A stretch of 64,000 bases of DNA. Source: Craspedostauros australis. Lineage: Eukaryota > Bacillariophyta > Bacillariophyceae > Mastogloiales > Achnanthaceae. Where the stretch lies: NCBI GenBank assembly GCA_026770025.1, contig JAMXDE010000056.1, positions 310,001-374,000 of the forward strand, read 5' to 3'. Numbering within the stretch: position 1 is the first letter of the stretch; every line of letters starts with the position of its first letter. Below the pieces are notes generated by a model. The model was not told where the DNA came from, did no database searches, and was given only the letters and a program-made list of their open reading frames with translations. This document shows positions 864 to 35,397 of this stretch, piece after piece. Made by a program: the position numbers and the translations under genes.

Positions 864-3800
864 ATGCTGTTCCGAATGACCGCAGCCTTCGCGCTGCTGG
901 GATTGCCAGCAAATCCGGTGCTTGCGCAGACGCAGTCGCTGCTTGGAGGCCGGTATACGACCACAGCAGATGTGTCTGGAATTCTGCAGCTGGCGCAGGA
1001 CACTGTGGACATGAAGGAGACATCAGATACGGAAGAAAAGGCCACCATCTATTCCCAAGGTCGTCATGCCACCAATGGCGGCGCCAATGAGTGAGTCATG
1101 CAATTGTGCCCAAGATTTGCTTGTGGCCATCACCTAGTCTGCCTTGATCAGCATCTGTGTGTTCATGTTCACGGCATCATCCACGTCCGTATTCATGAGC
1201 AATACGAATGCTTCTGTGGATGCTTCTGTGGGTGCTTCTGTGGGTGCTTTTGTGGATGCTTCTGTGGGTGCTTTTGTGGATGCTTTTGTGGATGATCACA
1301 CACCAACATTCAACAACTCCACAACTCCATACACTCACCATGTCTTGAATTCTTTGTCACACAACACGATTGTGCAACCAACCTTTCCGTGCGACACTTG
1401 CACTATGCCAACCCCCCAACGACATGCACAATGCACACTGAACAATGCACTCCCCCACTCATGCTCCATCAAAATATCAACACAATATCAACACAATACT
1501 CGCGCTATGCGTTACCTCTGGTCTTCTCTGCAACGATGAAATCACGAACTGGCGATCTGACCGAAACTGACCGAACTGACCGAAACTGACGAAATACATA
1601 TGATCCAATATACTTCATCGGAAACTCGCTTCGCACAACCAACAAAACAACCAAATATTCTACAATACATGACACCATACTCAATACCCAATTCTGCAAT
1701 GCATCGCAGCGAGAGGCTATCGTTGGCAGATCTCAGTCTGGAGGCTGGCAAGGAAATGAGCAAAACACCATATTACAATATCTACCGCCACGGGTTCCTC
1801 GTGCTCGGCGATGTCGACGAGGGGGAACCAAATGGCAACTTCGACGGTCAGCCCGCATCCAATTACGCCGACACCATCGTCAACGATCTCTTCGACCTTG
1901 ATATTCCAAACATCGAGACGGATGCGGCCCTCGTCATGAACGTCTGGATGGCGGCCGTGCACGAACTATTCCTCACCGCAAGAGAATGCAAGGCCAACAA
2001 CCCCGACCGGGCGCTCGAGAATCTGGACCGCTCCATCGCCCTGTGGATCGGTGACGGCGAAGTGCAAGGTCAGAACGACAGGGGGCACATGCTCTACAAC
2101 CTGGCACAGAAGGTGGGCACCAGATTTGGCCAAGACGGACCAGACGGAGAAACCAAGGTCAACACCGACCTCATCAACAAGTTCCTCATCTTGCAGGCGG
2201 ACATCAGCCAAAACAACAAGTGCGCCGAACCCGCATACTACCTGACGATCCGCAAGATGGTCAAGGACATGATCTCCATCATGACGGTGCCTCTGGCGCA
2301 AAACCTCATCCATCATCTGTGGAACATCGAGAACGAAGGCAACTCGGATCTCATCGAGCTATACGCCCTCTCCCTCCTTCCGCCTGTGGCGACGTGCGAC
2401 CCTGACGTCTACAGATCGGAGCTCAGGCACACGGTCCTCAAGACCACAGCGGTCGCCGACAGGGACGACGCCATCAGCGAGCTGCAACGGGCCTTCAGCT
2501 GCCTCGGCATCACCTGCGAAGACGTCGGTGCCTACAAGGGCAGCGAAGTGCCACAGTGCACCGACCCCGTCGGCCTCAACCTGGTCGGCTACTCCTCCGA
2601 TTCCAGGGACACCGCACGCATTCGCTCCTACGTCGATCGCGACATCTCGCAGATCGGCGTCTTCATCAAGTTCGAAGACATCGGCAGCGCCATCGACTGG
2701 TACGAATTCGGATGGAACTCCAGAACCACGACCCTCCTGGACCTGGCGCAGAATGCGCTCTTCTCCAGTTCCGAAAATTCACTCTTCACGACGTTCCAAT
2801 CGTACTACAACGATCCCATGTTCGCTCATGACTTCATCATGTCCGTCCTGCAACGCACGGGCCCCAACTACGTCCTCGCATCCACCCAGCAGGTGCGCCT
2901 GCTCGTCACATCATACCTCCAGTACGTCGTTCTCTTCTTCTCAGCCACGGCCTCTCTCGAGGCAGCCGCCACCAACTGCGGCAGGGACCAACCCCTCGCG
3001 CTGGAACATCTGGATTCCGCCGTTGCCTACTACGCTGGCAGCATCGAAGGTCCCGAACAGCAGGGCAGCTCCGAGGATGCAGGCACCTTGCTCTTCAGCG
3101 TTGCCAAGGACTACTGCGCCGAATTCGATACCTGCAACCCTTCCGTCTCGCAAATCCCAATCGCCAAGGCCAACGTACAAATCATCGAGGGCTTCAAGCT
3201 GTCCGCAACCAACATCAAGGCCTCCAACTGCGATGCCTTCGAAAAGTCCATCGAGGACGTCTTCGGCCGCTACATCCCCGTCCCCCTGTACCAAGGACTT
3301 CTGCGATACGCCTCCATCAACGCCAACCTGCCACCGGGAACTTCCGAGAACGAGAGCCTCAGCGTGGGATTCGCCTTCTCCCAGGCGCTCCTTCCCATCA
3401 TCAACTACGCCAGCGAGGACTCCGCGGTCATCATCGGCCGCAACATGAACTTCGACACCACCAACCCAGTGCAGGATGGATTCGACGCTGTGGCGGATGC
3501 TCTGCGTTCTGCGATGGCAGGTCTGGAGACCAAGTGTGGCGACATCGGCGTGTACAAGGATGCGCCCTCATCCGGCGATCTCTGCGCATCCCGCGTCATG
3601 CCCACCGTGGCGCCAGTCTCACCACCCGTCATGATCCAGCCAACCTTCGCGCCTAATCCAGATCCCACCTTCGCACCCATCGGCGACGTGCACCCGACCC
3701 CGGCCACCATCGACCAACTGGCCTTTGGACGCTATACATTCAAGAGTTTGAATTTTGCCACTGCCGACGCTGCATTCGCTGATGACATCAAGGCCATGTT

Positions 3801-6800
3801 CCAAGCGGAGGATGCGTCCGCTGCCCAGGAGATCTACACCAACGGAGGCAACACTTCCTCCGAACCATTGTCGGGGGAGATCGGCGTGACGACGCTGTCG
3901 CAGCTGAGTACCATGGCAGTGGAGTACATGTCCAAAGACCCCATGTTCAACATCTTCAAGTACGCCCTGTACGATGACGTCGATCTGCCCGACCAAGACG
4001 AGACGGATTTCATCTACGCGGACGACATGGTCCAGGAGGCTCTCAGCGTCCCCGAGGATCCGAAGCTCGCAGCGGAGGCCGCTGTCATCCTCAATGTCTG
4101 GATGGTCATCACGAACCGCCTGTACGGCGCAATTCGTCTCTGCAACAACGATGCGGATGCCAGCACCCTCATCGATTCTGCCGTTGCGCTCTGGATTGGC
4201 AACGAACAGGCAGAGGGCAAGTACGATCATGGATGGATGATGTACTCCATCGCGCAATCTGCAGCGAAGTACTTTGGACTGCCAGAGGCCGAGGCCAAGG
4301 TCAACACGAAGCTCATGGATCTCTTCAACGACGCACAAGGTATTGCCGCAACATGCCAATCTAGCGACACCGCAGTCCAAGAACTACGCATCAAGAGCGA
4401 CGAGATCATCCGGCTGCTCACCATCCCGCTCGTGCAATCCCTCATGTTCCACATGGTTGAGAACAACCGCAACATGGTGGACATGTACGCTGTCGCTGTG
4501 CTGCCACAGTGCGTGGCATGCGACCCCACGGCTCATGACAACCTCATCGATGTCACGTACGATGACTACGACCGCGCCGACTCCTTCACGGACGAGATCA
4601 AGGACAGTCTTGCCTCGTTCCTGCGGTGCTTGCGCATCACCTGTGACGACCTCGAAGTCACCGACAGTGCGGGACAAGGCCTCAAAAACTTTGTCGATGA
4701 CATTTGCGTCCGGTTGGACGATAGCAAACCAACGCCCATCGCTGGCTATGCACCCACCAACAACGTGGTCGAAGAGTCCAGGATGGATCTAGATGTGATG
4801 CAAGTGCAGATCTTCATGACTACGAAGGCGTATGACGCCGCATACGACGTGTACACGTACGGTCGAAACAGCCTCATGGAAGATGGCAAATCGCTTCGCA
4901 CATTGAAGCAGCTCGCCACATCCAGCGATCGTTCTTCGGTGGCCCTCTTCGATGGCTTCAAGACTTACTATGGCAACGACAGGAACTTCGCCCACGATCA
5001 AATCAAGGCAGCGATGGCGCAGACCGGGATTTATGAAAATGCGGGCCGCAAGCAGCTTCAGCAGATTGTGGAGCGCACGTTGCAGACCAGCGTGATGTAC
5101 CTTGCGGTGTTCTGGAACCTCCAGCACGCACTCGACGCGTGCAACAACGATGATATGGAAACGGCATCGAAGGCGTGGGACAGATCCGTCGCGTACTACG
5201 TGGGCTCCATCGAAGGCCCGATGGCGGGCGGCCAAGAGGATGGCGACGGAGAGATGCTCTTTGCACTCGCGAATGAAATGTGTGACGAGTTCGACTACTG
5301 CGCAGGCAATGGAGGTTCCAAGCTGAACGAAGACATGCTCAAGCACTTCCGGGACGGACAGGACGCCATCGCCCAAAAGCACTGCGAGACCCTCGAGCGC
5401 ACCATGACGTGGGAGGTGCTCCCAACCGCCACCGTGCCACTCATCCAGGGAACGCTCTATTATGCCATCATCAATGACCAGGCAAACATCACGGGAGAGG
5501 AGGCCAGCGTTGCTGCTGGGTCCGCGATTGCATACGCCGTCGGCCCGCTGGTGAATGCCGCCAACTCGACCAGCGGAGAGACGATCAAGCGCAACTTCGA
5601 CTTCTCGCAGCCCGCCATGCAGGACGGTGCAGCGAAGGTCTTCGAAGCAATCACCTACTCGCTGAGGGGCATCGGACTGGACTGCAACGACATTGGCAAG
5701 CCAAAGAACGGAGACGGCCTCGATCCGTGCACCGTTATGATCGATGACAACCAGGACGGCGTCACCGATGCCACCGTCAAGCCAGTCGCACCCCACCAGG
5801 ACACCGAGACCAACCTCGGAGAAGGGCTGTACGTCGCCACAACCTACGTCGAGGATCGTGCGGACATCGCCTTGGACATCAAGGGCATGCAGGGTGGATT
5901 GAATCAGAAAGAAACCGAACTCGCCAAGGTGATTTACGAATCCGGACAAAACTCCAACATCTACGACGAGAATGGCCAATTCGTGGCACTCCGGAGCTTC
6001 CAGAAGATGTCCACCGAGGAGACTGCCAATATGTCATTCATGCCACTGTTCAATGTCTTCATGTACGCGCTCCAAGACAGTGACGGAAATTTCGATGGCA
6101 AAGACGCTCGTCTTTACGCTGATACGTTGGTGCAGGAAACGTTCACAGTTGCCACCCAGCCAGGCGAAGTGACGTACTTGCCGGCCGAAGCAGCAACTGT
6201 CCTCAATCTTTGGATGTTCATCGTGTATACATTGGAGAAGACGCTCTCGCTTTGCGAGCAGAAGAAGATTCGGGGGGATGATGGCATCTCCGCAATGGAT
6301 GAAGCCGTCGCGTACTGGATCGGAGATGGTCAGATCGCCGGCGATGGAGAACGCGGGCATTTGCTGTACGCCCTCACCGAGAACATGGCGGAAATCTTCG
6401 ACACCGAGGTGGCTGGTCAAGCCAGGGCGAACACCAACCTCCTCAAGCTGTTCAACTCGGCCAAGAACGAGCTCTCCCTTTCCAACGCATGCTCCAACAG
6501 CCCAGCCACGTACATCCAGCTGCGTGCGCGGGTTTACGACATCATCGGCCAGATGTCAGTGCCGCTCATCCAGGGCCTCATTGACAGTCTCAGGACAAAC
6601 GACCGTCCACGAGTCAAGGTTTACGCTCACGCGTTCGTGCCCATGGTGTCGCAGTGCGATCCAGTCATCTTCGGATACCTGAAGGACAAGCTCCTTGACA
6701 TGACGTACAACGTCGTGGATGTGGACACCATCGTTGAAAAGGTTCAGACCGTGTACCCCTGCCTGGGACTGACGTGCTCTGATATCGGAGCCCATTCCAG

Positions 6801-25340: not shown

Positions 25341-26761
25341 TGTGTGCGGTTTCTCTTGGAGTTGGAATTGTTGTCGTAATTGGAGTTGCAGTGGCAATTG
25401 TGGGAGATTTGTGAGTGCTTCCAAACTCCCAGCCTTTCTCTCTCGCGCCGCCTCGTTGTCCAGCCGCTTAGTTCTGTGCTCACGATTGCGCAACGATGCT
25501 CAACTGCGAAGATGGTATTGTACCAGTTCCAGTACCAGTGCCAGTACGAGGATGTGTATTGTGGTTGTCAGATGCTTGGTGCTTACACCACGTGTACCGA
25601 CGGTAATGAGTCTCCCACCACGATTGCAGAGAGTGGTTATCGCGGCACAAATATTGGTATTGCACGACCAAGAGCAGAGTCTTCCAGAAGGAATAGAAGG
25701 TATAATAGCTGGAAGCGTGGAATGGTACACTAGAGTACTCCAGTGTGAAACGTGACCCTTCAACGCGTGGAGCTTTGGGTTTGCTTCTCTCTCTGTTGTG
25801 CTCTCTCTTCCCCAAGTCTCAGTAATACGAATCGATGCCCAAGGATGCGCTGCCGTCTGAGCTGACACTGATAGAGGTGAGGTGATCTTGATGCGGTTAG
25901 CCTCAGTAGTCGTACGACTAGTAGTATGGTACCAATGCGGATGCGACAGAAGGTGGAGTGGCGGAATACAAAGAATGACGCCAGACGCCAATGAAAGCGG
26001 ATGCTGCTCCTTTGCACACTCGTCCCGCTTGCGCTGACAGATGAGTTCTGCGTGCGATGAATCAGATGAAGCTTGTGGAATCGTGGAATGTGGTGAAAGA
26101 GTGTGTTGGTATGTTGGTGTGTTGGTGAAGTGATGGAGTGGTCGAACGCGTGGAATCTTCTGCTCGACAACCTGCTCCGCCCCTCGACGATACTTGCACC
26201 ATCTGCCACCAAACACGCTACAATCGAAAGTACCCGCATCCATCACCAGCTGTCTCATCGCAGAGAGGTGGCATCCCCATTTCCACCACCCACCAACACA
26301 ACACGACACAAACGGAAGCGAAGCGAAGCGGAACGGCAGCCGAGAGACATCTGTCACCACCCACGATCGCGGCAGTCACTGTTTCCGTCACCACGCAACG
26401 TGTGACGTCGGCAACAAACAGAGTCCAGGTGGTCGATTACGAGCTCTACTACGAGCTGCACACGGAATAACAACACAGGACCAACGCTCTTCGCTTCTTG
26501 CTATCACGAGGTCTGAGGCGGTGACATCATCGTTGACGCGAGGTCCATGTCGAGGGAGCAGCGACATCCACGACTGACGCACACCAAACCGTGCGTTCTG
26601 CGCCAATCATTGCGGTTCTTTCTTTCGTCTTTGGGACGCGGAACATCGAAACCAGGGACACGCGGCAAAATGTCGAGTATGACCCCAAAACCTCATGACT
26701 TAAATACGAACGACAGTTTCAGTGACGTTTGATATTTATTTGGTCATCACGTCTAAATTGA
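25341..26761. other. Intergenic region; no convincing gene
   Basis: This is upstream of the minus-strand HAD-repeat gene and extends to the edge of the 26.8-32.2 kb transposon. Several open frames overlap on both strands (for example 25500-26360 minus and 26103-26577 plus), but all are compositionally random. A promoter for the HAD-repeat gene is expected here. Confidence 0.5.
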
Positions 26762-26785
26762 TAGTATCATGCTGTCATGTGTCAT

Positions 26786-26930
26786 TGTCGGGAATGTCGG
26801 GAATGTCGGGAGTTTTGTCGGGAATGTCGGGTGTCTTGTCGGGAATGTCGGGTGCTTTGTCGGGAATGTCGGGTGTGTTGTCGGGAATGTCGGGTGCGTT
26901 GTCGGGAATGTCGGGAATGTCGGGAATGTC
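26786..26930. repeat. 21-bp minisatellite, left array
   Basis: The unit is TTGTCGGGAATGTCGGGTGY plus one variable base. There are about five full units, with extra 9-bp GGGAATGTC copies at both edges. It closely matches the array at 31919-32060 in unit, length (~145 bp) and orientation, and is open in several frames on both strands. Confidence 0.95.
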
Positions 26931-27177
26931 AGGATTCTCTCCAACACACACCCGCAGCTGATTCAGCACAGCCCCTGGCGACGGACAGACGAAAGAATGA
27001 AGAAAACAAAAACGTGTGTCGTGGTAACAACAGACACAGTCACACAGAGTGCGAAACCGACACGCTTGCGCTCATTTTGTGGATGTGCACTTGACTCAAT
27101 GAGAGAGAGTAGAGTAGGGTTGATTGTATTAATAAGTAATGGTGCTATCCATTTAATTCACAACTACTGCTGATCAA

Positions 27178-28086
27178 CTATACATTGAATATTGCAGCCC
27201 CGTTGTCCATCTGATATTGAACAATCACACAAACTGCGACCATCACATGTTCATACAGCTCGCTTCCGTGTCGGAATGTATGGCCAAGACTGTTGAAGAA
27301 CTTCAACCGTCCATTGAACGTCTCATGACGACAACGAGCTCTGCTCTTGAATTTGGCAAGCTCTTTGCAGTCCATTTTGTCTGGGAGAGAAAGGAGCTTG
27401 CGTTCTTGTGGTCTGCTGGTGGCATACCCTCTGTCGGCAATCGCGAGTTTGCCTGGCTTCAGCTTGTGCATCAGACCGCTCCGGAAAATTGTCATGTCGT
27501 GTTCGCCGCCTCGGTGTGGCCCACTGATCCACACGCACTTTGCTCCAAAAACCGACATCGCGAGTTCGTACTTCACTGCTCCATGGTTGAATTTTTGGGA
27601 ACAGTACTTGCGGTCGATGGGGAGCGTTGGGTGCTTTTTCTCCCAAGTGCGAAAATCTGTTCCATCCACAGTGATGGCGAACACTGGCGAATTGTCCGCG
27701 TCGAGTGCTGGGTCCCAGACAATTTTTTTGGACTTCAGCGAGGCGATGCGGCGAATCCATTTCCACAATGGCTCTCCACGGCAGTATCGCTCACACACCC
27801 CAAAACGCGATGCCAGGATGCTCGCGTTCTTTGGGTATGTCCAAAGGAAGTGGTGTGCCATCATGAAGAGCTTGAATCCTGAGGGTGACTTCTCTTTGGC
27901 TGAGAGCTTGGCACCATCGAATGAGTCTGAATTCATGTCAAACCACATTTCTGACAGGTCCAGCGGTGAAGACCCGTAGTGTTGACGGAATGCTTTTGTG
28001 CGTTGGTCGATGGATGCGGCGCTCTGAAAATGTTGGCCAGTGTACTGGAGACCAATGGTCATGACGTCGGTGGTGGTCAGTAACAT
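27178..28086 (-). CDS. DDE_Tnp_4 (PIF/Harbinger-like) transposase
   Basis: The product is 302 residues from ATG 28086. Family hallmarks are visible in order. VFAITVDGTDFRTWE carries the first catalytic Asp near 153. NHGAVKYELAMSVFG and WISGPHRGGEHDMTIFR carry the second Asp-containing segment near 205. LAIADRGYA follows, and then CRHETFNGRLKFF, the usual helix with the terminal acidic residue, near 263. The C-terminal FRHGSELYEHVMVAVCVIVQYQ matches HARBI1-type nucleases. The frame is intact and of roughly family length, so the gene may be functional. Such enzymes cut and paste DNA at TWA targets and normally act with a Myb/SANT-like partner encoded nearby. Confidence 0.88.
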   Translation of the reverse strand: MLLTTTDVMTIGLQYTGQHFQSAASIDQRTKAFRQHYGSSPLDLSEMWFDMNSDSFDGAKLSAKEKSPSGFKLFMMAHHFLWTYPKNASILASRFGVCERYCRGEPLWKWIRRIASLKSKKIVWDPALDADNSPVFAITVDGTDFRTWEKKHPTLPIDRKYCSQKFNHGAVKYELAMSVFGAKCVWISGPHRGGEHDMTIFRSGLMHKLKPGKLAIADRGYATSRPQERKLLSLPDKMDCKELAKFKSRARCRHETFNGRLKFFNSLGHTFRHGSELYEHVMVAVCVIVQYQMDNGAAIFNV

Positions 28087-28709
28087 GATGTGAGTGTTGC
28101 TTCTCAACTGATGATTTGTGAGTGTGGTTGATCAACCTCGGCTGCATCAAATCAAGCCAGTTCCTGTTGTGTTCCATCGCTTGCTTGTTCTTGGAACTGG
28201 TCGCAGTAGCGCAGCAGCAGTCGCCATTCGAATGACACCGGCAGTAGCAACAGTACCATCAGTAACAGTAGCAACAGCAGTAGCTGTTGCAGCGATAGAA
28301 ACAGTAGCCACAGTCGGACTAGCAACATAGTACCAATCCTTGCAACCGTATTCAGAATTGCAGTTGGAACCATCACAATGGCAGTCGTAGTAACAACAAG
28401 AGTAGTAGTCGTTGTCATAGTTGTTGAGTTCTTCTTGTTCTACAGTAGACCCGCTTGGCCGTTAGTTGGCGACGATTTAGTCATCACACGCAAGTCCACA
28501 CACAAGGTCATGTGTTGCTGCTATCGATTGCTAGTATGTGAGTATCGCCAATCACGTTGCCAGGACTGATCCGTCTTGACAAGAACAAGAGCTCGCAGCG
28601 ACGCGACTCAGCTCGACGAAATGCAGCAGACCACAGCTGGTACTCTCATCCAACAACCGCGAGTCACTCTATACTGGTATTGCTTCCCCATAGTATCACA
28701 TACCCGACC
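28087..28709. other. Divergent promoter region between transposase and ORF2
   Basis: About 620 bp with a low-complexity CAG/GTA-rich stretch (28200-28330). No gene is recognisable. It presumably holds the promoters of the two divergent transposon genes. Confidence 0.45.
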
Positions 28710-29126
28710 ATGAGCAAGGTGACAGCAGCGAAAACGGAGACCAAGCTTGGCAGGGAGGTGCGCTTCTGCGCAGGAAAGTACCAAGGGAAGGTTGGATGGC
28801 TCGACGCATCCAAAGAGCCAACGCCGAAGAAAGTGTACGTGTTTGTGGACTTGGGCCAAGGAAAACACAAGCACACCATTGTCAGCCAGACGAGCGTCGC
28901 ACCACGCCACACCAAGCCTGAAACATACGGCGAGGCGATTTTCCAACAGCACGAGGACATCGAGAGAGCAGCTGACCACTTGGTGAAAATGCTTGCAGAG
29001 TGTTCGATCAGTGGATTTACCGAAGACATTGGCACCATCCTGACCGCCAAGATGACGGCTGCTCACAGTCGCCAAGAGAGTCTCGGCAGCAAGGCGAAAT
29101 GGAGAAAGGTCCAATTCGAGAAGTGA
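28710..29126 (+). CDS. Transposon ORF2: small basic protein, unknown function
   Basis: The product is 138 residues from ATG 28710 (context GACCATGAG). It has a beta-rich N-terminal part, VRFCAGKYQGKVGWLD followed by KKVYVFVDLGQGKHKHTIV, reminiscent of a KOW/Tudor-like small barrel, then a predicted helical C-terminus ending in a basic KWRKVQFEK. I do not recognise a named family. It sits divergently from the transposase and converges with ORF3 (134 bp apart), suggesting an accessory role in the same element. Confidence 0.6.
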   Translation: MSKVTAAKTETKLGREVRFCAGKYQGKVGWLDASKEPTPKKVYVFVDLGQGKHKHTIVSQTSVAPRHTKPETYGEAIFQQHEDIERAADHLVKMLAECSISGFTEDIGTILTAKMTAAHSRQESLGSKAKWRKVQFEK

Positions 29127-29260
29127 ATCAGAGAACACAACGAACTTGCGCGATCGTTGCGAACCAACAAACAGACGGAAAGACAACCAGCAACACTCAA
29201 CAAAGCACAAGTAACCTCAATTAGTCTTATTATCAATTAACCACAACACACAAAATGCAA

Positions 29261-30475
29261 TCAGGCGCCCGTCTTCTTCTTCTTGTTCTTCTTCTTCTTG
29301 AAGAGCCCACCAGCGGTCGTTTTAGTCTTATCCTTGGTGTTGCGAACGCCACCATCCAAACCAATTCTCCAATAAATGATCAACCCAGTCAGCACACTGC
29401 CTTCATCAAATCCGAACTCGTTCGCGTCTGCTTCGAGTGGGATGTGGTCTTCTTTGAGTGTCGCGTTGTTGTTGGAGAACACAGTGTTGTCAAGACGGAC
29501 AACATCTGGAAAAACCAACCAATAGAAACAAGTGACACGTCCCTGTGCTTCGTCGATTGCGACTTGTGTGGACTGGTGAGCGAGCTTGGTGGCACCGCAC
29601 TCCAGGTCTTCGTGGTACCGTTCACGATCACGGGTCCAGAAGTCAACAGAAGGGCCCTCAATTTGGATGACACGGCCTGCCAACTCTGCTTCGGTTGCTG
29701 GGATTGTTGCTTTCCATTCATTGAAGTCTGGTGGCGGGATGGATTTGGAAATATGGAAAGCGTTCACCGTGTGATCATTGTGGTTGATGCCAGACACGTG
29801 TTGCACGTTGAACTCACGGTTGCGCTCAGGATGGTCCACACTGACCATCGTGATGAATGGGCGATTGCGTGTTCCTTGCTGCTCTTGGACGAGCGTTTCG
29901 AGCGATTCGAGACTTGCCGCGGATGGGGAGATGCTGGCAGTATCCACAGCACCAGGTGGCGTGAACAGAGCTCTTGCGGTCATTGTAGTGTATGGGCGAA
30001 GTAGAGGTGATTGAAGAGAATTGTCGCAAGATTGTTGGGGGCGAGAGAAGCTGGGAGTCGCCCTTGTGGATGGTGGCGAAGTTACCCGTAGACGGCTAAA
30101 TGCAGAGGTGAGGTCGTCTTCGTCTGTGTTTTGTATGATGGCAGCAGCAGCGGCAACAGCGGTGGCGGTAGCGGCTGAGGAGGTTGTCGCTGGTGTTGCA
30201 GTAGTCGTTGTCACTGGAGTGTGGATCTTGGTCTTGCTGGTTGGATCGATTCCAAGCCTTGCCAACAGCTTCTCGTATCCTTTCGGTGTGAGCCTCTGGA
30301 TGTCGGAGAAGCGTTTCTGAACTGCTCTGCGCTTGATTGTCCCAGACAGCCCGTACACGGTTGGGTTGGAGTTGCAAACTTCTCGTAGGTTGATCAGGTT
30401 GAGAGGGATCGGGGAGTTCTGGATCTCCTGAAGCAAAAGTTTGAGCACAGCATCTTCGACAACAGGGAGTGTCAT
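29261..30475 (-). CDS. Transposon ORF3: unknown protein with lysine-rich C-terminus
   Basis: The product is 404 residues from ATG 30475. Residues 1-80 look folded and helical (VVEDAVLKLLLQEIQNSP, then GTIKRRAVQKRFSDIQRL) and could be a small DNA-binding or interaction domain. A Thr/Ala-rich low-complexity linker follows (about 90-130). A second folded part (about 205-385) is conserved-looking, with many Trp and aromatic residues (FWTRDRERYHEDLECG, FYWLVFPDVVRLDN). The C-terminus is a Lys cluster (KKKKNKKKK), a likely nuclear localisation signal. I do not recognise a family. Position and nuclear signal suggest a partner of the transposase. Confidence 0.55.
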   Translation of the reverse strand: MTLPVVEDAVLKLLLQEIQNSPIPLNLINLREVCNSNPTVYGLSGTIKRRAVQKRFSDIQRLTPKGYEKLLARLGIDPTSKTKIHTPVTTTTATPATTSSAATATAVAAAAAIIQNTDEDDLTSAFSRLRVTSPPSTRATPSFSRPQQSCDNSLQSPLLRPYTTMTARALFTPPGAVDTASISPSAASLESLETLVQEQQGTRNRPFITMVSVDHPERNREFNVQHVSGINHNDHTVNAFHISKSIPPPDFNEWKATIPATEAELAGRVIQIEGPSVDFWTRDRERYHEDLECGATKLAHQSTQVAIDEAQGRVTCFYWLVFPDVVRLDNTVFSNNNATLKEDHIPLEADANEFGFDEGSVLTGLIIYWRIGLDGGVRNTKDKTKTTAGGLFKKKKNKKKKTGA

Positions 30476-30931
30476 GTTTGGTGCTACATGTATTACTAGA
30501 TGCAACCTGCAATTTGTGCGATGTCTGGTTGCAAAATGGTCGAGCTGCAGCCTAGATGCATGTCAAAGTTGACGCTCATCACCTCCATGGCATCGTCATT
30601 GCTTTCGCAAAAGCTACGACATAGCATTGCTTCAATACCTGCCTCAGCATTGCTCCATAGAACTTTCTTACATAGACAAGACAACAACAAACCACATAGC
30701 ATTGGATCGGCACTATGGACAAAGACAATTCAAGAAACTTCGTGGTTAATGATGGACATCATGGTGATTGCCCCACATGCATCGATAGATCGTGTCTCGT
30801 ATGCTACACTCTGTTCAACAGTAGAAGAACAGCACGAGGTTTCCGCACAATGCTGATTGGAACAAGAGCTCGAATCTGCCCCACTCACGTCCTCCTGTCT
30901 GGACCACTGCAAATGAGTCATAAATTCAACA
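30476..30931. other. Divergent promoter region between ORF3 and ORF4
   Basis: 456 bp with no recognisable gene. Overlapping short frames on both strands are probably chance. Confidence 0.4.
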
Positions 30932-31453
30932 ATGCCAAAGTCAACTCAACCTGGTTGGATCGATTGGAGGAAGAGCCCAGCGCGGGCAATCCTGATGGAG
31001 GATTTGGAACCTGGCGGAGTATTGTACAACAAAGAGTATCCTGCTGAGGTTGCATTCGAGGTCTATCGCGACACGCCTGAATTTGCTGGTGTGGTGTTTG
31101 GTCAATTCAAGGCACGATACAACGACTACAAGAAGAAAGCCAGCGAGCGGCATGTAAGATCGTGCTTGGAACGCAGAGCGCTTGAACGTGATCGTGCAAT
31201 GCATCCAAGAGCATCAACTAACAACATGGGACAGCCAGTATTCGACATGTCTGAGGCAAAGGCACTGCTTGCTGATGATGTCAAGAACAACCGACACACT
31301 CAACTGCCACCTTCCGAGTTCCAAAAGACACGCAAGGAGTACATGCATTTTAACAAGGACGTGTTTCGCCATCGAATTTATCAGGAGGTCCGTCATCAGA
31401 AGTTCATTCATTACCTTGCGATCCAGCAAGCATCGAAGAAGAGCTCCAAGTGA
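30932..31453 (+). CDS. Transposon ORF4: small putative DNA-binding accessory protein
   Basis: The product is 173 residues from ATG 30932. The N-terminal half (WRKSPARAILMEDLEPGG, then FAGVVFGQFKARYNDYKKK) has the look of a compact helical domain found in hypothetical transposon-linked proteins of stramenopiles. The C-terminal half is basic and helical (HFNKDVFRHRIYQEVRHQKF) and ends in KKSSK. By analogy with PIF/Harbinger elements, which need a second DNA-binding protein, this is the best candidate for that role; this is inference, as no Myb/SANT signature can be confirmed by eye. Confidence 0.5.
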   Translation: MPKSTQPGWIDWRKSPARAILMEDLEPGGVLYNKEYPAEVAFEVYRDTPEFAGVVFGQFKARYNDYKKKASERHVRSCLERRALERDRAMHPRASTNNMGQPVFDMSEAKALLADDVKNNRHTQLPPSEFQKTRKEYMHFNKDVFRHRIYQEVRHQKFIHYLAIQQASKKSSK

Positions 31454-31918
31454 GTCGAATGTCCATCAAGCAACACTCTCTGGATTAACCTATTATAGTT
31501 CAATGCCAATCAGCAAAACAAAGAACAGGCTCAATCAGTTGTCTTTTTTCGCACGATGCGATGCGTTGTGGTGCGATGTTGTGTGATGTTTTGTGATGTG
31601 GTGTGGTGTGATGTGATGTGATGTGATGTGAGGCGAAATGATGTGAGGCAAAATGGCACGAGGCGAAATGGGGTGTTGTTGTGTCATCAAATGGAAAAGG
31701 TTGTCCCTTGATTGTCCGAATCCCCACGGTAGAACCAATGAACGCACTGTAACGATCCAAATAGCCTCAGCGCTTTGAGTGGTGTTTGGTGTGTGTTCTG
31801 GGTACAACTGATGGATCGCACTGGGACACACTCTATCAACGTTATCCAACAAGCGAGCACATGCAGATGGGCAAAGGTACTCAAACACGCCGACTGCCTT
31901 GTGACGAGTATTGAGCGC
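31454..31918. other. Transposon right flank, no gene
   Basis: Contains a GTGAT-type microsatellite (about 31560-31640) and no recognisable coding sequence. Confidence 0.5.
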
Positions 31919-32060
31919 TTTGTCGGGAATGTCGGGAATGTCGAGAATGTCGGGCGCTTTGTCGGGAATGTCGGGTGTCTTGTCGGGAATGTCGGGTGCT
32001 TTGTCGGGAATGTCGGGTGCGTTGTCGGGAATGTCGGGTGCTTTGTCGGGAATGTCGGGA
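31919..32060. repeat. 21-bp minisatellite, right array
   Basis: About five 21-bp units matching the left array at 26786-26930, same strand orientation. Edge copies include a 9-bp GGGAATGTC variant (GAGAATGTC). Confidence 0.95.
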
Positions 32061-32152
32061 GTTTCTCTGTTGCGACTCAAGGTTTTCGAAAGGGAGTAAT
32101 TGATGCCAAACGCAACAACTTTGAATGACTGGTGGATAATGTCATGATACTA

Positions 32153-32811
32153 AATTACTTAACGAATGATAGGTTGAATGGAATCCCGACTTTCTGCCGA
32201 GTGTCCCAGTCACTTGTTTTGGGCGAAGACGAGAAATCGAGCGGAATTAGCGCGGAGGTTGTTCGTTCTTCGATCTTCTGCGGAGGCAGACGGGAAGCAT
32301 GTTGAACACTTCATGGTGATCTTTTTGCGCGTCTCGTGTGAAGGATCTTCGAACGTGGATGGATGACCAGAACGACGAACAACGTGATGTTGTTTTGGGC
32401 TGTGAGGTGTGGCGCCTCGCGAGCTGTGAGTTCTCCAAGGGGATGGACATGAACATCGCCATGGTTGCTTCGGGAATGGAACAACATCACAGGCAATTGC
32501 AAACTGGTCTGTTCTGTTCAAGTGGCGTCGTACCAGTACCATCCATCTGGCGACGATCACAAGTACGAGTAAAAGTGCAACCACGAGTACAAGTGCAACC
32601 ACGAGTACTGCCAACGACTGAGGCTGGCAGCAGTCAGGACACCTTGTGCTGTGAAAACCTTGCATCCATCTGCATCCATCTGCATCCATCTGCATCCATC
32701 TGCATCCATCTGCATCATCTGCGTCCATCTGCGTCCATCTGCGTCCGCCTGTGTTCAGTCTCACTACCAACAACCCACTCGCACGAGCATTGCATCACCG
32801 CATTTGAATAG
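32153..32811. other. Upstream region of the EGF membrane protein gene
   Basis: No convincing gene. It contains a 10-bp array TGCATCCATC (five perfect units 32661-32710, degenerate TGCGTCCATC units to about 32745) within 100 bp of the next start codon. Confidence 0.5.
32661..32745. repeat. 10-bp TGCATCCATC tandem array
   Basis: Five perfect TGCATCCATC units then a partial unit and TGCGTCCATC variants. It lies 70-150 bp before the start codon of the EGF membrane protein gene. Confidence 0.9.
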
Positions 32812-35397
32812 ATGCAAGGTCGTGACGCCATCCATCGCAACGACCAACTCAGCAGTCATAATAGCAGCGATAGCTACAACCACAACCACAGCCAAGAGGT
32901 TTGGCTCAGCAACGTTGCCACCAACTGTGCCACCGATCGAAACAACAAGACAAAACTGCAGTCGAATAGAGTTGCCTTCACAATGGACTCCTCCAACGGC
33001 GAAGATCAGGTCGATGTGAATGCACGGGCGTTCGCGCATGGAGACGTTGAGACCAATGGCAACAATGGAGAAGAGGTCAAGGCCCTCTTCGATTCGGATG
33101 GCAATAGACATGGAACTCATGTCAGCAGCGATATGGAGGATCTTCACCAACCCAGTGAAACTGTTATCCCCAATGCCACAAGCAACACCATCGCCAACAC
33201 CACCACCACCAACACCAATGGCAACAATACTCTCCAGGCTACTAGTACCAGCAAGCCCGGTGACGAAGACGACGCAGAGGATGACAGCCACATTGACAAC
33301 CTCGACGCCGAAGAAACGACTGGCTTCACTGAATCCGTGGGCCGGAAGACGAAGCAGGCCAAGGTGGAGCTTCAAGAACTGCCTCACAATATGTACAGCG
33401 TCATGTTCCTCGCCGCTCTCAACAGCAAGAGTTTTGCTTTTGCGATGGTCGTCTTCACTTTCCAGGCTGCCATGACGTCCCTCGCCCTTGTGGACCTCAT
33501 CGACAAGAACAACAGCAAGAATCCCCTCAAGGTTCCAGAAGACGTCGACATCATCATCCGTTCCGCACAGGGGCTTGCCCTCGTCCTCTCGGTGGCTGTG
33601 CAAGGAGACGTCAAGGAGTCCATCCAGATCATTCACGCGGGCTACGACCGCAGCATCAGGGAGCGCTTGCCAGACGCCACCTTCCTCACCTGGGCCATCG
33701 CTTACACCGCGCAGCTCCTCGTGGGGTTGGCATTCCTCGCCGTGATCTTCATCCTCGTCGTGCGCAGCAGTTCTGTCATCGAGATCTTCCTCAACTTCGC
33801 GGCGCTCGCCTTCATCTCGGAAATTGACGATGTCTTTTTCCAGCTCGGTCAGCAGGGATTCTTCGAGGCCTCGATCCAGCATGTTTGCCAGCTCGTCGAT
33901 GAGCAAAGGATCCCCGTCCGACGGCGCAAGTACCCCATTCACAAGACCGTCATGCTCGTCATCCTTCTGGGCATGATCGCAGGATGGTCCGTCATCATGC
34001 ACCAGCAATTCAACGGCTACTTCCTCTGTGACGCCATCCTCGTGCAGTTCGGCGATGCTTATCATGCCACGCTGCCAACCCACAGCGGTGTCTTCGTCAA
34101 GAGGGGAAGCAAGCACCTTGACGGCCGCCAGGTGTACGTCTCGCGTGATTACGATGGAGACTTGGCTTCCTACTTTCGCTACTGCCACAAACATACGGCC
34201 TGGGTCTTCCAAGTCATGGCGTTCACCGATGCCACATCCGTCCATAATATCTGCGATGACTACCTCATGATCTCCAAGACCACGGAGACTTTCAACCTGA
34301 TGAGCCTCAGCAGCGCTTCCGACTGGAAGATTCGAACGCTCGACACCACCAACTTTCGTCTTTCCAGTCTGGAAGAACCGGTCGACCATTTCTACATCCA
34401 GTGCACCGAGTGTGGCAGCGGGGCCTGTCGGGGACCGTGCCGCAACGACCGGTGCATTTGCGAGGATAATCAGTTCGGCGAGAGGTGCGAATTCGACGGT
34501 GCCTGCTCCTCGATCTCGATCGATTCCAGAACCCCCGCCTTCTCCAATGCCAACTTCTTCTTCGCTGAAGCCTTCGTTTTGCTAACATACACAGACGAGG
34601 CAACCAACGTCACCAAGCCAGTCAAGATCAATAGCCGCCCAGTCTACATCGATGACTACCCATTCTCCTCCGGCGAGCACGATTTTCTCATTTTCAACGG
34701 CCGCAGGTGGATGATCATGGACACAGTCAATGTCTTCAACAGCACGCAGCAATTCATCAACGAGCTGCTGGCGGATCAATTCCACCTCTCCCTCACAAAT
34801 GACTTCAGCAGGGGGCCGTACTATCTCTCATCCGCCGTCGATCTTGCCACGCCCTCCAACGCTGCCACGCCCACGAGCCTCAGCTGGTCCCGCCGTGGCC
34901 CCGTATCTGCGCAGGACTACAGCCTTGGGCAGCCAGTCGATTCTCGCTTTCTCTGCGAAATCTGCGACAACACCACCAACGCATGCTTTAATGAAGGTGA
35001 ATGCTACGGCACAGAATGCGAGTGCTTCACACCGCTGACGAAGGCCAGTGGTATGCTTTGCGAGAGGGAGATCTCTTGTTTGGAAGAGGACTGCGCAAAT
35101 GGTGGAACCTGCAACTTGGTCACTGGTGTGTGTGACTGTGACATCGACTTCGACGGTCGGCTTTGTCAGATCAAGTACTGCGCCGAAACAGGAACCTTCT
35201 GCTTCAACGGTGCAACCATTTGCAACCCCGATGGTACTTGTGAGTGTCCTCCAGGATACATCGGTGAAGATTGCATTGAATTTGACTGCACTGACCCGAG
35301 TGTGTGCCAGAATGGTGGAGAGTGCGGCCCTGTGGAAGGTTGCGACTGTTCAGATACAGACTACGAAGGTACCTTCTGTGAGATTTTGTTCACGTAA
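32812..35397 (+). CDS. Multi-membrane protein with EGF-like repeats
   Basis: The product is 861 residues. ATG 32812 is preceded in frame by TAG, so it is the first possible start; ATG 32983 is an alternative. A hydrophilic Asn/Thr/Asp-rich N-terminus (1-190) is followed by membrane helices near 207-230, 292-318, 324-345 (NFAALAFISEIDDVFFQL) and 379-397. A large soluble region has one EGF-like unit at about 530-560 (GACRGPCRNDRCICEDNQFG) and four more in the last 145 residues, with CANGGTC, CDCDIDFDGRLC, CECPPGYIGEDC and CQNGGEC. The NFAALxFIS...DD motif next to a helix recurs in large diatom membrane families, as I recall. EGF units would face the outside or lumen, so an adhesion or cell-surface role is likely but unproven. 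Confidence 0.75.
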   Translation: MQGRDAIHRNDQLSSHNSSDSYNHNHSQEVWLSNVATNCATDRNNKTKLQSNRVAFTMDSSNGEDQVDVNARAFAHGDVETNGNNGEEVKALFDSDGNRHGTHVSSDMEDLHQPSETVIPNATSNTIANTTTTNTNGNNTLQATSTSKPGDEDDAEDDSHIDNLDAEETTGFTESVGRKTKQAKVELQELPHNMYSVMFLAALNSKSFAFAMVVFTFQAAMTSLALVDLIDKNNSKNPLKVPEDVDIIIRSAQGLALVLSVAVQGDVKESIQIIHAGYDRSIRERLPDATFLTWAIAYTAQLLVGLAFLAVIFILVVRSSSVIEIFLNFAALAFISEIDDVFFQLGQQGFFEASIQHVCQLVDEQRIPVRRRKYPIHKTVMLVILLGMIAGWSVIMHQQFNGYFLCDAILVQFGDAYHATLPTHSGVFVKRGSKHLDGRQVYVSRDYDGDLASYFRYCHKHTAWVFQVMAFTDATSVHNICDDYLMISKTTETFNLMSLSSASDWKIRTLDTTNFRLSSLEEPVDHFYIQCTECGSGACRGPCRNDRCICEDNQFGERCEFDGACSSISIDSRTPAFSNANFFFAEAFVLLTYTDEATNVTKPVKINSRPVYIDDYPFSSGEHDFLIFNGRRWMIMDTVNVFNSTQQFINELLADQFHLSLTNDFSRGPYYLSSAVDLATPSNAATPTSLSWSRRGPVSAQDYSLGQPVDSRFLCEICDNTTNACFNEGECYGTECECFTPLTKASGMLCEREISCLEEDCANGGTCNLVTGVCDCDIDFDGRLCQIKYCAETGTFCFNGATICNPDGTCECPPGYIGEDCIEFDCTDPSVCQNGGECGPVEGCDCSDTDYEGTFCEILFT

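Follow-up and report, generated by a model that had tools for sequence, protein, structure and literature searches.

A probable four-gene transposon of the PHIS superfamily with subterminal repeat arrays in Craspedostauros australis

Here, we describe a four-gene element, probably a cut-and-paste DNA transposon, in the nuclear genome of the alga Craspedostauros australis (Bacillariophyta). The element spans positions 26656-32206 (5,551 bp) of a 64,000-nucleotide stretch, the window, which corresponds to C54:310001-374000 of the genome searched here (74.8 Mb in 90 contigs; GenBank assembly GCA_026770025.1, contig JAMXDE010000056.1, forward strand). In keeping with a diatom or a similar alga, this genome has 61 stretches matching the light-harvesting family PF00504. 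The top-scoring stretch carries an AFAP-type leader, a feature typical of algae with red secondary plastids; its closest solved chain is LHCI-11 (9vfj), and fucoxanthin chlorophyll proteins are frequent among its further matches. It carries four intact open reading frames (ORFs), with starts placed at ATG codons of our choosing, in two divergent pairs, ORF1(-)/ORF2(+) and ORF3(-)/ORF4(+), and a tandem array of one and the same 21-bp unit stands inside each end (Table 1). An earlier annotation made from the letters of the window alone, hereafter the original prediction, had proposed a self-contained four-gene Harbinger-like transposon at this place, and the four ORFs and their pairing are confirmed.

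Table 1. Features of the element, in window coordinates (aa, amino acids)
Feature	Position	Strand	Basis
Left target-site duplication, CAG	26653..26655	.	Same 3-mer on both sides in 17/17 two-ended copies
Left terminal inverted repeat, GGACACGCGGCAAAATGTCGAG	26656..26677	+	18/22 match to right end, by eye
Left subterminal array, 21-bp units (TGTCGGGAATGTCGGGTGTGT)	26786..26934	+	Tandem-repeat call; derivatives
ORF1, predicted DDE transposase, 302 aa from first ATG	27178..28086	-	Pfam DDE_Tnp_4; purifying selection
ORF2, 138 aa, N-terminal KOW/SH3-like domain (tentative)	28710..29126	+	Weak profile matches; purifying selection
ORF3, ~404 aa from first ATG, no known family	29261..30475	-	Sister alignment; purifying selection
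ORF4, 173 aa, apparently two tandem similar halves	30932..31453	+	Distant-relative alignment; purifying selection
Right subterminal array, same 21-bp unit and orientation	31917..32068	+	Tandem-repeat call; derivatives
Right terminal inverted repeat, reverse complement GGACACTCGGCAGAAAGTCGGG	32185..32206	-	End reading of copies
Right target-site duplication, CAG	32207..32209	.	Flanking-triplet comparison

The limits of the element were set by aligning other genomic copies. A query with the left 2 kb recovered seven more long copies at 97-99% identity (one of them split in two pieces), which together with the window copy make up family A, eight close copies with 97-100% identity across the left 2 kb. 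The left end is common to all eight and the right end to six (L010 and L012 are without it), and homology between copies keeping both ends breaks off within a few bases of 26655 and 32207. The limits first drawn, 26762..32152, were therefore too narrow, with the true ends about 107 bp (left) and 55 bp (right) farther out. The mapped ends enclose ORF1-ORF4, so the case that could have undone the original prediction, ends that exclude ORF2-ORF4, fell away. Read over the family-A copies, the left end runs from ...CW into GGGACACGCGGCAAAATGTC and the right end from CTGCCGAGTGTCCC into WG..., and the terminal inverted repeats are about 22 bp long and imperfect, with a GGACAC.. start. The first ~20 bp of the family-A left end are also carried by the gene-less derivatives L016-L023, and the terminus GGACAC.CGGCA is found as well at the ends of two diverged families, B and C.

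Both ends are available in 17 copies (six of family A, seven gene-less derivatives, two of family B and two of family C), whose flanks read CWG, then GGACAC...GTGTCC, then CWG, with the flanking 3-mer equal on both sides in every case: nine CTG, seven CAG (hence 16 CWG) and one TAG. One edge letter of each triplet doubles as an element-end letter, leaving the middle W and the outer letter as the informative positions, and the middle W agrees in 17/17. The count is confined to copies with both ends available and so leaves out L010, L012, L023, L036, L038, the family-B copies C2 and C10, and the solo ends L024-L027; the family-B copy C65, also outside it, looks alike in its end alignment. Because L014 and L018 sit inside repeats, empty sites were available for comparison. 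For five of the 17 copies, the joined flanks served as genome queries. Three of the five (L014, L016 and L018) have empty paralogous sites, unbroken matches over 156-157 bp at 93-99% with a single triplet; for L017 and L021 no empty site was found among the first-look candidates that were scored, a part of the total, and these two misses carry little weight. Read base by base, the empty sites of L014 (one) and L018 (three) are CTG, as expected, whereas the two read for L016 are TGG and the L016 copy itself is flanked by TAG. L014 belongs to family A and has the full set of genes (its ORF3 tail is altered), and its empty site joins without a scar; together with the paralogue ends, this bears out the proposal of a self-contained four-gene mobile unit. 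The element most likely inserts at CWG with a 3-bp duplication. Duplication of a single base, the W inside CWG, with ends GGG..CCC, fits nearly as well, and we favour the 3-bp duplication because L016 has TAG on both sides; the inverted repeat starts GGA if CWG is duplicated and GGG if W alone is. As side observations, L014 (C4:1876800-1886700) holds a nested insertion of ~2.6 kb near the position equivalent to window 31769, and both L014 and L018 are inserted within repeats resembling a Ty1/copia polyprotein.

The four genes also recur together elsewhere in the genome. In family A, ORF1 and ORF2 are open in all eight copies, ORF4 in seven (it is cut in L012), and ORF3, at a length of at least 404 aa, likewise in seven (it is shortened or broken in L015). 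The same set is present in families B (~6.9 kb) and C (6,980 and 6,960 bp), whose ends were mapped and whose ORF1 is 58-62% identical to that of family A, and in a partly broken third sister, locus D. The order ORF1(-) ORF2(+) ORF3(-) ORF4(+) holds in all five fetched sister loci (L033-L037), at identities of 53-62% for ORF1, 30-37% for ORF2, 23-30% for ORF3 and 30-48% for ORF4; L036 has broken versions of ORF1 and ORF4, and L037 a broken ORF4. A sixth fetched locus, L038, is a relic of family A that retains just ORF3 and ORF4. Protein searches of the genome gave 19 ORF2 loci and 19 ORF3 loci (the latter merged from 23 rows). None of them stands more than 8 kb from another member of the set; 15 of the ORF2 loci and 15 of the ORF3 loci have all three partners at hand, and the rest are short of one or two. 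Co-occurrence of the four ORFs with this transposase, a check suggested at the outset for related genomes, is seen here in diverged families of one genome. Since families B and C share the GGACAC.CGGCA terminus and the CWG target, the four-gene set was probably present in the common ancestor of families A, B and C.

Selection has acted on all four genes. Distinct changes were counted over six of the eight family-A copies (L012 and L014 left out), and as copies share ancestry these counts only approximate events. Synonymous to non-synonymous changes stand at 11:7 for ORF1, 9:2 for ORF2, 29:20 for ORF3 and 12:2 for ORF4, where site numbers predict between 1:3 and 1:4 (binomial p of 3e-4, 3e-5, 2e-7 and 4e-7, respectively), and eight of nine control ORFs of the region are without a significant synonymous excess. 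A separate count on other copies gave ratios of non-synonymous to synonymous change (pN/pS) of 0.15, 0.08 and 0.21 for ORF1, ORF2 and ORF3 and 0.27 for ORF4, the last taking in the relic L038. Hence all four ORFs are under purifying selection. A candidate fifth gene, a 118-aa ORF at 30500-30856, was rejected, with 5 synonymous against 17 other changes, which is chance level. Adjoining the element, at 32812-35397 (+), lies an ORF of 861 aa that seems, by eye, to encode membrane segments and EGF-like cysteine repeats; it is probably a host gene.

What might the four proteins be? ORF1 matches Pfam DDE_Tnp_4 at 37.8 bits (cut-off 24.8; expectation value, E, 1.8e-9), and its candidate triad D148, D225 and E262 (309-aa reading), positions that are our own assignment, is invariant over eight aligned sequences. 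By its sequence, ORF1 is a Harbinger/IS5-like DDE transposase with its triad intact, and on these two grounds we place the element in the PHIS superfamily. ORF2, ORF3 and ORF4 have no Pfam family at E<=1, in keeping with the earlier view of them as unfamiliar. For ORF2, a KOW/SH3-like fold is likely but unproven: the KOW model is matched by two of five ORF2-family members, and the best solved chains are those of ribosomal protein L24 (E 0.16). The latter is a KOW protein too. Run against the genome, the KOW5_SPT5 model gives one strong match, a 1026-aa frame taken as the host SPT5, and reaches the ORF2 loci C40, C4 and C13 only at E 0.3, which leaves the KOW reading tentative. ORF3 consists of a conserved N-terminal segment, a variable linker and a conserved C-terminal domain. 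Its lysine-rich tail fits the nuclear signal once suggested for at least one of the ORFs; as the tail is absent from four aligned sister ORF3 proteins, and so is not conserved, that argument was dropped. ORF4 is small and basic, and its distant relatives show, in our reading, two similar halves of the form W..S.A..(I/L)L...(I/L)..G......Y...PE......F. The Pfam scan of its family gave stray matches, such as a three-helix helix-turn-helix model at E 0.098 in one member, and a diverged Myb-like fold is possible. Profile searches of the PDB with ORF4, ORF3 and ORF1 returned nothing credible. Alignments of ORF1, ORF2 and ORF3 found no confirmed relative in a viral contig collection, nor did that of ORF1 in a genome contig collection; the collections searched, being viral, bacterial and archaeal, are uninformative on distribution in algae.

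Beyond the sister families, four loci carry distant transposases (30-39%; L039, L040, L041 and L043), and an ORF4-like gene is present in all four. As the most constant partner of the transposase, ORF4 is therefore the strongest candidate for a counterpart of the Myb-like protein of related elements, and it is likely to be a DNA-binding partner in place of that protein. No credible pair of ends with the same inverted repeat was found at L039-L043 or at L064 (C6:1511714-1513951). L064 and some 20 similar loci hold transposase copies 39-47% identical to ORF1 with in-frame stops, most often three TGA and one TAG, and adjoin ORF4-like stretches, mostly with two TGA; L064 is CpG-poor (observed/expected 0.55 vs 0.95 in the window), and copies of this type look as if they were amplified after decay or struck by C-to-T change.

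The arrays were described in the original prediction as two copies of one minisatellite enclosing the ORFs, and this holds, except that they are subterminal and not the ends of the element. The repeat calls cover 26795-26915 (5.8 copies) and 31917-32059 (7.0 copies), both in the same orientation. The core pattern of the 21-bp unit occurs 162 times genome-wide (the reversed control, not once). Among 100 of these places listed, 97 fall within fetched loci of the element family and three outside them (C15:774078, C17:964766 and C18:414837). Both arrays are kept in all seven two-ended derivatives lacking genes (1.16-2.47 kb); none of the seven has an ORF among the matches listed in the ORF1-4 protein searches, and at least two match the 3' part of ORF4 in the copy alignment. 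Family C also has an array at each end, built of a 20-bp unit unrelated to that of family A. Within a family-C copy, 43% or 51% of the 11-mers are common to the left and right arrays, against 6-9% for arrays of different copies. Between the two copies, L035 and L037, identity is 92-99% in most 250-bp windows of the interior, dropping to 82-91% in four of them (3491-4729), and it stands at 84-88% over the first 500 bp and 72-77% over the last 500 bp, as if the ends had been exchanged between lineages or were evolving very fast. Across most of the transposase gene the same two copies are 97-99% identical. Matched ends within one copy are what either the binding of both by one element-encoded protein or gene conversion between them would be expected to give. 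The proposal that the arrays are subterminal binding sites is supported, as an inference, by their retention in the derivatives and their homogenisation in family C.

In light of these findings, how might the element move? In the zebrafish element Harbinger3_DR, the Myb-like protein has two binding partners, a 9-bp subterminal motif and the transposase; its interaction with the transposase is needed for the joint nuclear presence of the two proteins, and transposition requires both (PMC9710019). In Galileo, of another superfamily, transposase sites lie in tandem repeats within the ends (PMC3688188). We consider it probable that the present element is a DNA transposon of the cut-and-paste kind within the PHIS superfamily, with four genes and, by target site, nearest to the Nuwa I type; the binding steps and the need for ORF2-ORF4 are conjectural. 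ORF1 would be the catalytic DDE transposase. Because of the analogy with the Harbinger3_DR Myb-like protein and with Galileo, we propose that ORF4, alone or with ORF3, may bind the repeated subterminal motif at both ends, and that the arrays, with 6-8 sites per end, could load many copies of an ORF4-type binding protein, which would bring ORF1 to the inverted repeats and pair the ends. ORF2 (KOW-like) and ORF3 might be accessory components, either within the complex or in its expression and import. By analogy, then, the transposition complex may contain extra subunits, as the original prediction had supposed. A more elaborate version is less likely than not: a four-subunit machine of DDE transposase, two-repeat DNA-binding protein, KOW-domain protein and new ORF3 protein, acting on subterminal arrays that are matched at both ends and switch between lineages, the array being an address label that ties the ends to their own proteins.

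Several observations weigh against the explanation that we prefer. Among the best 22 of 129 rows for ORF1, 15 have all partners and two have none listed nearby, and there are five loners among the best 23 of 75 rows for ORF4. The ninth control ORF, frame 27347, antisense to ORF1, has a synonymous excess of its own (8:2, p 2e-4), probably due to its third positions coinciding with those of ORF1. The KOW5_SPT5 model is matched weakly by four of five ORF2-family members, with a best E of 0.0053, below threshold; the Myb/SANT model is unmatched in all nine ORF4-family members scanned; and single-sequence AlphaFold models are too weak for use, with a predicted local distance difference test (pLDDT) score of 45 for ORF4 and 34 for ORF3. 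Finally, ORF2 is not detectable in any of the four distant-transposase loci. This last result, set beside the ORF4-like gene found in all four, is what one would expect if a two-gene transposon (ORF1 and ORF4) had captured ORF2 and ORF3 as passengers that serve regulation or escape from host silencing and not transposition. PHIS elements with extra genes of this kind are known, with a SET methyltransferase in HarbingerS and TET/JBP in fungal PHISTA (PMC12730594), and we give such a capture an appreciable, if minority, chance of being correct. However, ORF2 and ORF3 remain linked over families A, B and C at 23-37% identity, both are under purifying selection, and an ORF3-like N-terminal segment is clear in two of the four distant loci and weak in a third. 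It is highly improbable that the locus is a composite of adjacent insertions, with ORF1 in one element and ORF2-ORF4 in another or in the host. The two divergent gene pairs could hint at two modules, but one pair of ends encloses the four genes in six two-ended family-A copies (ORF3 being broken in L015) and in families B and C, and the four-gene copy L014 has the scarless empty site described above.

As for the arrays, they could be neutral minisatellites, expanded by slippage and spread with the element, that have no role in binding. Tandem arrays form readily, families A and C have different units, and the number of units is not constant from copy to copy. Moreover, family B has no array called at its left end and no clear tandem array, the sole repeat at its right end (61 bp, 2.2 copies) being present in one copy. 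We nevertheless judge neutrality unlikely, as families A and C each have an array at both ends with the same unit in the same orientation, and the sharing of 11-mers within family-C copies far exceeds that between them, although gene conversion would do likewise. In addition, the arrays of the seven derivatives are 82-91% identical to those of the window element and the flanks 72-78%, in 7/7 (for the left array, 88-91% against 72-76% in its flanks), a comparison that is tempered by the seven forming one subfamily, and so nearly a single observation, and by the free register of a tandem repeat.

Most descriptions of PHIS transposons give them one protein or two, with the need for the second only partly explained, and this element may use a larger protein machine for its mobility than its known relatives. 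Four proteins kept together through deep divergence, along with intact close copies and gene-less derivatives in one genome, make the division of labour directly testable, and arrays that change together at the two ends of a copy are a natural experiment in how a transposase finds the ends that belong to it. Extra genes in PHIS elements are not unheard of. Neither this particular set nor any Harbinger or Nuwa element with four genes was found in the literature searched, which had Repbase outside its scope; a scan of PMC9179366 for such terms also gave none. According to PMC12730594, three families in a lineage near Nuwa, one of them Harbinger4_TP, were later confirmed with 3-bp duplications. 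A Repbase description of a relative may therefore exist. The suffix of Harbinger4_TP presumably stands for Thalassiosira pseudonana.

Among known systems, Nuwa I is the closest. Within PHIS, a 3-bp CWG target duplication is the mark of Nuwa I and TWA that of PIF/Harbinger in the strict sense (PMC4482050), and 16 of our 17 two-ended copies have CWG and one TAG. Nuwa I elements have inverted repeats of 12-61 bp, usually starting GGG, and two ORFs, the second with Myb/SANT, and in the 2015 survey they were confined to animals (PMC4482050). The present element shares with them the CWG duplication, short inverted repeats starting with G's, a DDE transposase without other domains, a second gene of DNA-binding type (as suggested for ORF4) and a similar length (the Nuwa I average is ~4.5 kb). 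It differs in having four conserved genes in place of two, no detected Myb/SANT, subterminal tandem arrays, an inverted repeat that starts GGA if the duplication is CWG, and an algal host. PHISTA and HarbingerS resemble it as PHIS elements with genes beyond the transposase, PHISTA encoding a third protein and being placed, with weak support, near or inside the Nuwa lineage (PMC12730594). Their extra genes, however, are TET/JBP or SET enzymes, neither of which is seen here (TET/JBP is unmatched in Pfam scans of the ORFs), and PHISTA duplicates the 2-bp TA and not CWG. The Harbinger families of the brown alga Ectocarpus likewise have a stramenopile host and a Harbinger transposase, but every autonomous one described there carries a tail-to-tail pair of genes and targets ANT or TNA (PMC12477816). 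With PIF/Harbinger sensu stricto, for example Harbinger3_DR, the element has in common a Harbinger-type DDE transposase, a multi-gene make-up, gene-less derivatives and, in its arrays, candidate counterparts of the 9-bp subterminal sites bound by the Myb-like partner (PMC9710019), whereas that group has a TWA target and two genes. The label "Harbinger-like" thus holds for the transposase and for membership of PHIS and fails for the strict group, and the element is best filed in the PHIS superfamily as Nuwa-like by target site but with four genes.

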